Shown: positions 34,217 through 60,840 of the stretch, in pieces
How positions within the stretch are numbered: the first letter of the stretch is position 1
How the letters are laid out: the number at the start of each line of letters is the position of its first letter
Assembly (NCBI RefSeq): GCF_002214605.1
Contig: NZ_CP015193.1
Span: 1 to 64,000 of the forward strand
From: Thermococcus chitonophagus
Lineage (GTDB): Archaea; Methanobacteriota_B; Thermococci; Thermococcales; Thermococcaceae
DNA: 64,000 nucleotides
Reading direction: 5' to 3'
Position numbers and translations under genes: made by a program
The notes under the pieces: generated by a model
What the model was told of the DNA's origin: nothing
What the model saw: the letters and a program-made list of their open reading frames with translations, nothing else
Databases searched by the model: none

Positions 34217-34870
34217 ATGGAGGAGAGCCAAGGAATGCAACTTGTCAATAAGTTCGTTATCTCCCTTCCCGAGGGGAAAATCCTCGGGTACGTCACCGAT
34301 ATAAACGTTGAAGTAACTGGGGATCAATACGTCTTCATATTTAAGATGAAAGCCCTCGAAAATATATCGAGGGGAGAGTTCCATTCAGGGATGTTCTCAT
34401 CAGAGAAGAAGATAAAGGTCAAGCCTTCCGATATAGTCAATGTTGGCCCTGACGTGATAATCCTTGGAGATGGCAAGGTTCCTCCCTTAAGGGAAATAGA
34501 GAGATTGGCCCAGATAGCCGAAGAATATAATAATATTGTCAAGGAGCTTGAAAAGAAGGAAGAGGAAATTAGGAAACTAAAATCAGAAAAAGAACAACTT
34601 GAGAGAGAACTAGAGGAGCTTAAGAGGAAGCTCAGAAGACTTGAAGTTCTCGAAGATGACTTTGATCACCTTAAAGAGCAATTACTCAAGCAGGAAGGAC
34701 AACTAGAGATGGCTAGGGAGTATATCAAACTACTTGAGGGAATAAGGCATGACATAGACAATATAAAGGCCAACGTTGAAACTTTGATCTCAGGATATCT
34801 AGAGGATGTAATGAGGAGAATAGTCAATGATGAGTTGAATGCAAGAGGGTTAAAGAAGACGCCAATCTAA
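34217..34870 (+). CDS. PRC-barrel-like domain fused to a long coiled coil
   Basis: 217 aa from ATG 34217. Residues about 10-95 form a beta-barrel with two repeats resembling PRC-barrels ('GKILGYVTDINVEV', 'VKPSDIVNVGPDVIILGD'). Residues about 100-170 are a strong heptad coiled coil ('VKELEKKEEEIRKLKSEKEQL...'), followed by a helical end. No signal or membrane segment. It lies 45 bp after RPA32, so it may be in the RPA operon. I do not know the function; a structural or DNA-maintenance partner is suggested by context. Convergent with Sec61-beta, 4-bp overlap. Confidence 0.7.
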   Translation: MEESQGMQLVNKFVISLPEGKILGYVTDINVEVTGDQYVFIFKMKALENISRGEFHSGMFSSEKKIKVKPSDIVNVGPDVIILGDGKVPPLREIERLAQIAEEYNNIVKELEKKEEEIRKLKSEKEQLERELEELKRKLRRLEVLEDDFDHLKEQLLKQEGQLEMAREYIKLLEGIRHDIDNIKANVETLISGYLEDVMRRIVNDELNARGLKKTPI

Positions 34871-35037
34871 CCGAATATCCTGGGACCAACCACGTGAAGA
34901 AGGATTTCGATCATGATGAACACTAGCACTAGAACTATTGCGCCCTTTGGACTTATTTTTACTGCCCTTGTGTCCTCGTCAAAGAACCTCATTAAACCTG
35001 CTCCCGTTGGTGGCAGAGTTGTCTTCTCCTTGGCCAT
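34867..35037 (-). CDS. secG: Preprotein translocase subunit Sec61-beta (SecG)
   Basis: 56 aa from ATG 35037, with AGGTGAG upstream. Sequence M-A-K-E-K-T-T-L-P-P-T-G-A-G-L-M-R-F-F-D-E-D then one C-terminal membrane helix (about 33-52) ending H-V-V-G-P-R-I-F-G: a standard archaeal Sec61-beta tail-anchored subunit of the SecYE translocon. An upstream ATG nine codons earlier would overlap the ribosome site. It shares a symmetric TATA (TTATATAAAAA) with the divergent H/ACA RNA. Confidence 0.93.
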   Translation of the reverse strand: MAKEKTTLPPTGAGLMRFFDEDTRAVKISPKGAIVLVLVFIMIEILLHVVGPRIFG

Positions 35038-35065: not shown

Positions 35066-35078
35066 GTTATATAAAAAT
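35066..35078. promoter_or_regulatory. Shared TATA box between Sec61-beta and the H/ACA RNA
   Basis: TTATATAAAAA reads as a TATA box on both strands. On the plus strand it predicts a start near 35096, exactly the base of the RNA stem; on the minus strand it predicts a start near 35045, shortly before Sec61-beta. Confidence 0.6.
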
Positions 35079-35095
35079 CTTGCTAATTTTATTCC

Positions 35096-35171
35096 GCCCG
35101 GGGCAACCGCGGGGGAGGAGCTGAAGGATTAACCGAGCGATGACTCCCCTTCGCTCCCCCCGGGCACATGA
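35096..35171 (+). ncRNA. H/ACA box guide RNA with K-turn
   Basis: A GC-rich hairpin in an AT-rich gap. GCCCGGGG (35096-35103) pairs perfectly with CCCCGGGC (35158-35165), followed at once by ACA (35166-35168). Inside, GGGGAG (35112-35117) pairs with CTCCCC (35144-35149), leaving an internal loop of 104-111 (+35000) and 150-157 as the pseudouridylation pocket; it lies 15-16 nt from ACA as required. The upper part has CTGA (35121-35124) and GATGA (35139-35143), a K-turn/K-loop for L7Ae. A TATA lies 25 bp upstream and T-runs follow at 35177-35190. Predicted target pattern: AGCGAA-U-N-GCGG. The target is not confirmed. Confidence 0.82.
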
Positions 35172-35304
35172 AATCACTTTTCTTTTTTCAAAAATTTTTC
35201 TTTCCAAATTAGTAAGAAACAGTGTATCAATTATCAACATGATTGGGCCACTCTCAAGGACATTTATTTAACTTTAACTTTTAAAATATTTTATCATACT
35301 AGAA

Positions 35305-60690: not shown

Positions 60691-60750
60691 TGAGCTCAGC
60701 TAACCCTCTTCTCATCACCGGTCAGAGTGGCTAACGGTCATCATGGGCCA
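60691..60750 (-). ncRNA. C/D box guide RNA (minus strand)
   Basis: Read on the minus strand: C box ATGATGA (60744-60738), 12-nt guide CCGTTAGCCACT, D' box CTGA (60725-60722), spacer CCG, C' box GTGATGA (60718-60712), 12-nt guide GAAGAGGGTTAG, D box CTGA (60699-60696). Both guide spacers are 12 nt, the archaeal standard. The terminal stem is weak. A TATA-like TTTTTAAC lies about 25 bp upstream. Predicted targets by the N+5 rule: G in AGUGGCUAACGG and C in CUAACCCUCUUC. It overlaps the open frame before PAP2. Confidence 0.82.
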
Positions 60751-60780: not shown

Positions 60781-60840
60781 TTGAGGATGATGAGCGTTTA
60801 CCGGTCTGAGCCGTGATGATATCGGCACTGTCTGACTCAA
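60781..60840 (+). ncRNA. C/D box guide RNA (plus strand)
   Basis: C box ATGATGA (60787-60793), 12-nt guide GCGTTTACCGGT, D' box CTGA (60806-60809), 3-nt spacer, C' box GTGATGA (60813-60819), 12-nt guide TATCGGCACTGT, D box CTGA (60832-60835). The ends TTGAG and CTCAA pair as a 5-bp terminal stem. A TATA (CTAAATAAAAT) lies near 60754-60763, about 25 bp upstream. Predicted 2'-O-methylation sites: G in ACCGGUAAACGC and U in ACAGUGCCGAUA. The last 4 nt overlap the gcvPB stop on the other strand. Confidence 0.88.

Follow-up and report, generated by a model that had tools for sequence, protein, structure and literature searches.

Hairpin architecture and family membership

Listed in Table 1 are the features found at a single locus of the window, the 64,000-nucleotide stretch of the Thermococcus chitonophagus genome under analysis. 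A hairpin-forming RNA on the forward strand is preceded by a divergently oriented gene for the translocon subunit Sec61-beta, the start codon of which lies 58 bp from the RNA. On the downstream side of the hairpin, between 35369 and 37529, two proteins were tested and showed no Pfam match. Elsewhere in the window are two C/D-box guide RNAs, sR12 and sR34 (Rfam), at 60785-60836 (+) and 60694-60748 (-), which are divergent and ~36 bp apart.

Table 1 Features of the guide RNA locus, with positions in the window
Feature	Position	Strand	Evidence or remark
Sec61-beta translocon subunit, 56 aa, divergent neighbor	34867..35037	-	PF03911, E 1.1e-14; tblastn in 9/9 genus members
BRE-TATA of guide RNA, GTCAAAGTTATATAA	35060..35074	+	at expected -36, matrix p 1.2e-3 per position; family-wide profile
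BRE-TATA of Sec61-beta, AGCAAGATTTTTATA	35070..35084	-	begins 47 nt ahead of ATG; matrix p 2.7e-4 per position
H/ACA guide RNA Pab160 (RF02796), from base stem through ACA box	35096..35168	+	Rfam score and compensating changes in 40 distinct relatives
5' guide strand CAACCG	35104..35109	+	AACCG pairs with 16S 912-916
Upper stem to K-turn	35110..35151	+	from C.U mismatch (35110/35151) and invariant G-U (35111/35150)
K-turn and apical stem GCU/AGC	35118..35143	+	GA 35118-35119 with GA 35142-35143, bulge GAU 35139-35141
3' guide strand CGCUCC	35152..35157	+	pairs with 16S 904-909
ACA box	35166..35168	+	14 nt below upper stem
T-rich run, probable termination region of guide RNA	35178..35188	+	sequence

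The elements of the hairpin were read letter by letter from the window sequence. The base stem of 8 bp is formed by GCCCGGGG (35096-35103) and CCCCGGGC (35158-35165), and the two strands of the upper stem run from 35110 to 35117 and from 35144 to 35151. Encountered on the 5' side, from the outside inward, are the base stem, CAACCG, the strand CGGGGGAG, GA, GCU, and the apical loop. Beyond the loop follow AGC, the bulge GAU, GA, the strand CUCCCCUU, CGCUCC, the second strand of the base stem, and ACA. The 6-nt 3' guide and the 8-nt stem strand together account for the distance between the upper stem and the ACA, which is 14 nt in 39 of 40 distinct related sequences and 15 nt in the other; the H/ACA rule, as given in PMC4652768, calls for 14-15 nt. 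The K-turn displays the required tandem GA/GA and 3-nt bulge and is positioned above the pocket. Note that the upper stem comprises 10 layers if the pocket-side C.U mismatch is counted and 9 pairs otherwise. A 9-pair constraint is noted for the Pf9-derived RNA in 2RFK (PMC4652768).

Much of the initial annotation of this region agrees with the above description. The feature does lie inside 35066-35195, and the 8-bp base stem, the ACA that follows it, and the subsequent T-runs were all found where they had been placed. The TATA assigned to a position ~25 bp before the stem is the palindromic TTATATAA at 35067-35074, the center of which is ~26 nt ahead of the stem. The K-turn is present as well, but the CTGA named as one of its strands is not the strand that forms the sheared pairs. 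Likewise, a pocket exists at the proper distance from the ACA, but its boundaries had been misread, and hence its target. A bacterial-style promoter and terminator scan, which is ill suited to archaea, revealed no hairpin-type terminator.

The hairpin matches Rfam family RF02796 (Pab160) with a score of 61.9 bits, the curated gathering cut-off of that covariance model being 47.4 bits. The E-value is 2.7e-8 for the 64 kb searched, and the match spans the whole model (positions 1-68 of 68). The fold z-score of the hairpin is -3.1, with 3 of 200 shuffles folding equally well. The hairpin is the already described Pab160/Pf9 single-hairpin archaeal H/ACA guide RNA and an ordinary member of that family. 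Its original designation as a K-turn-containing H/ACA guide of the archaeal single-hairpin kind was correct, as judged by the Rfam match and by the conservation among relatives.

In the literature, Pab160 is described as a functional homolog of Pf9 that has been probed with L7Ae (PMC3726423), and Pa160 as the Pf9 ortholog and one of the experimentally tested guides (PMC4652768). The window RNA has in common with Pab160/Pf9 of Pyrococcus the whole-model match, the pocket letters, the K-turn, the ACA, and the single hairpin. It differs from the Pab160 consensus in letters of the base stem and of the apical loop, and its 5' loop is one base shorter than in most Pab160 relatives. According to these two papers, Pab91, Pab21, and Pab105 display the architecture and presumed protein set of the window RNA. 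Their guide strands and targets presumably differ from its own.

Conservation of the RNA across relatives

A Pab160 match is present in 85 of the 115 genomes of the phylum, all of them belonging to one taxonomic family, that of the window itself. Nine of the 30 phylum genomes without a match fall in the same family, and seven of these nine are less than 90% complete. Outside of the phylum, no Pab160 match was found in 300, 151, and 23 genomes from the phyla of G060, G059, and G058, respectively. The sole named control genome with a match was that of Methanocaldococcus jannaschii, which was matched in every one of these searches, as compared with the 474 matchless genomes of those three phyla.

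For the analysis of conservation, the locus was fetched from 60 of the 85 genomes, which yielded 40 distinct RNAs. Seven of the eight base-stem pairs are standard in all 40, and the outermost pair is standard in 39. In the upper stem, six of the eight pairs are standard in every sequence; the pair beside the K-turn is standard in 25 and that beside the pocket in two. Closing the pocket are a G-U pair that never varies and, next to it, a mismatch that is C.U or U.C in 38 of the 40. Both partners of a pair have changed in places; base-stem pairs 5 and 6 and upper-stem pair 4, for example, switch from G-C to C-G. No variation, on the other hand, is seen in the ACA or in the 3' guide CGCUCC in any of the 40 sequences. 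The 5' guide ends in AACCG in 39 and in GACCG in one, the latter still able to pair via G-U. At the K-turn, when read in a fixed register, the 3' GA occurs in 40 and the 5' GA in 35 of the distinct sequences. On the evidence of this alignment, the combination of constant unpaired letters with changing, still-paired stems is what is expected of a guide RNA.

The nine family genomes lacking a Rfam match were also searched with a custom model, and in eight there was again no match. That found in the ninth (E 0.4) was rejected, the guide letters being absent. A loose pattern search returned mostly chance matches, and its reversed-pattern controls were commoner than the pattern itself. In one genome, G078, which is a single contig and 99% complete, the 16S target is intact and Pab160 was undetected with either the Rfam or the custom model. 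There the guide has possibly been lost or has strongly diverged.

Promoters of the guide RNA and of Sec61-beta

The region upstream of the guide was profiled with 59 distinct sequences from 60 genomes, numbered relative to the first stem base. The profile peaks with A at -33 to -31 (the BRE) and with T/A at -28 to -23 (the TATA); A is also prominent at -10 and -3. According to a matrix built from 34 distinct promoter 15-mers of genomes outside the genus, seven of the nine genus members have the guide promoter at -36, give or take 1 nt, the exceptions being G005 at -39 and G007 at -65, a probable miss. As read from these letters, a predicted BRE-TATA lies at a nearly fixed distance from the guide whatever its neighbor.

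All nine members of the genus carry Sec61-beta divergently upstream of the guide; in the 51 genomes outside the genus, no Sec61-beta was detected within 1.5 kb of the guide. A gene for a Hef-like helicase is situated near the guide in 41 of the 60 genomes, convergently downstream in 27 (one of these a weak match at 33%) and upstream on the same strand in 14. In four genus members the Hef-like gene is convergent and close downstream, and none was found within 1.5 kb of the guide in G000, G003, or G006.

The same matrix predicts a Sec61-beta promoter 45 to 50 nt before the ATG in eight of the nine genus members and 38 nt before it in G005. In the window, the cores of the predicted guide and Sec61-beta promoters overlap by 3 bp, with predicted start sites ~50 bp apart. 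To this extent the shared TATA of the initial annotation exists in this genome. It does not stand as a conserved coupling, for the 3-bp overlap occurs in four of the nine genus members (G000, G003, G006, and G008), and the core centers are separated by 8 to 20 bp in G001, G002, G004, and G005. The offset in G007 rests on a probable promoter miss.

Bidirectional use of a TATA has already been described in P. furiosus, with start sites measured 49 bp apart at one promoter (PMC6640164). The BRE-TATA-BRE promoters reported there resemble the arrangement predicted for the window, in which one TATA would serve both strands with a start spacing of ~50 bp. Unlike those promoters, the pair in the window consists of a guide RNA and an annotated-type protein gene, and its start sites are predicted only. 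A literature search revealed no report of a divergent guide-Sec61-beta promoter pair.

The overlap could be taken to mean that transcription of the guide and of Sec61-beta are mutually exclusive, and that a coupling of ribosome modification to translocon supply has been selected. The TATA core common to both promoter hits in the four genomes named above and the constant presence of Sec61-beta as the divergent neighbor within the genus would fit such a scheme. Against it stand the separated cores in four other genus members, the retention of the guide promoter where Sec61-beta is not adjacent, and the behavior of P. furiosus, in which bidirectional TATA transcription is common and is assumed to yield mostly non-functional RNA (PMC6640164). 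We regard selected coupling as very improbable. Not even within the genus has the sharing been retained, and we therefore do not read it as selected co-regulation. Because the guide retains its own promoter in genomes with no nearby Sec61-beta, and because some genus members have separate promoters for the two genes, the suggestion that the TATA links guide RNA and translocon expression is unsupported. The overlap on one palindromic TATA, in this species and its close relatives, most likely results incidentally from the close packing of divergent genes. We give very little credence to the idea that, within one lineage of the genus, both promoters have come together on one palindromic TATA able to serve only one direction at a time. 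If true, the cell would trade a guide for 16S rRNA modification against a translocon subunit.

Predicted target in 16S rRNA and proposed function

The register of the pocket was set by counting ten stacked layers downward from the K-turn, after PMC4652768. This count moves the edge of the pocket and thus leads to the register GGAGCG-U-G-CGGUU, a bipartite site with 11 Watson-Crick pairs in which the modified base is U910 of the 16S rRNA (our own numbering, from the first base of the 16S Rfam match). Of 25 registers obtained by sliding, the best hit was the U910 site, and the runner-up registers reached 10 pairs elsewhere. When the twelve pocket letters were shuffled and the same register was kept, 11 pairs were attained in 21 of 2000 trials, with G-U allowed. 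By complementarity alone, such a match would thus turn up in ~1% of cases for any one register; the remaining support comes from the published family and from conservation. In the 1.96 Mb genome, the 13-nt target site is found at one place only, 16S U910, and thus no tRNA gene contains an uninterrupted copy.

An 18-nt target pattern with at most two mismatches is present in 52 of the 61 family genomes, 51 of which retain an unaltered 13-nt core. In the remaining one of the 52, G019, which is 78% complete, the guide was also undetected. Given that the target site is invariant across relatives, there is no compensatory guide-target change to see. Pf9 of P. furiosus is presumed by us to target 16S U910. 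The window RNA very likely directs the conversion of 16S U910 to pseudouridine.

The target first proposed, AGCGAA-U-N-GCGG, was wrong, for its motif, AGCGAAUNGCGG, is absent from both the 16S and 23S rRNAs. The lack of any compatible uridine, which would have told against the initial annotation, is therefore not what was observed, since the correct register leads to 16S U910. It is very improbable that the guide functions in the earlier register, or on an mRNA or a tRNA, instead of on U910. Additional targets such as leuS have been predicted for Pa160 (PMC4652768), but the earlier motif occurs in neither rRNA and U910 is the only exact genomic match of the other register.

The central portion of the target, GCG-U-GCG, is nearly self-complementary, which allows pairing between the two guide strands. 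Indeed, the predicted free fold pairs C35108 with G35153 and G35109 with C35152, thereby closing its own pocket. As described in PMC3726423, the s2 pocket strand is changed or opened by L7Ae binding in Pab160 and not in Pab91. A self-closed pocket may explain this difference.

The notion that the hairpin is merely a terminator or an intergenic mRNA structure, for which its GC-rich character and the T-runs that follow could be cited, is negligible in view of the Rfam match, the invariant unpaired pocket and ACA, the promoter of its own, and neighboring genes that differ between genera. We favor, with a probability of roughly 93%, the explanation that the RNA is a Pab160/Pf9 guide with its own BRE/TATA and that Cbf5 acts on 16S U910. 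The guide RNA would be transcribed from this BRE/TATA with a start at or beside 35096. L7Ae would bind the K-turn, and Cbf5-Nop10-Gar1 the stem and the ACA. CGCUCC and AACCG would then pair with GGAGCG-U-G-CGGUU of the 16S rRNA, and Cbf5 would convert U910 of the paired site to pseudouridine. Directly supported here are the family membership, the architecture, the unique complementary site, and the conservation; transcription, particle assembly, and modification in this organism are what we infer.

The guide promoter is conserved independently of its neighbors, and a TATA common to divergent archaeal genes is, by itself, not evidence of co-regulation. For the annotation of this genome, the gain is a known guide RNA that now carries the correct pocket register and a specific predicted target.
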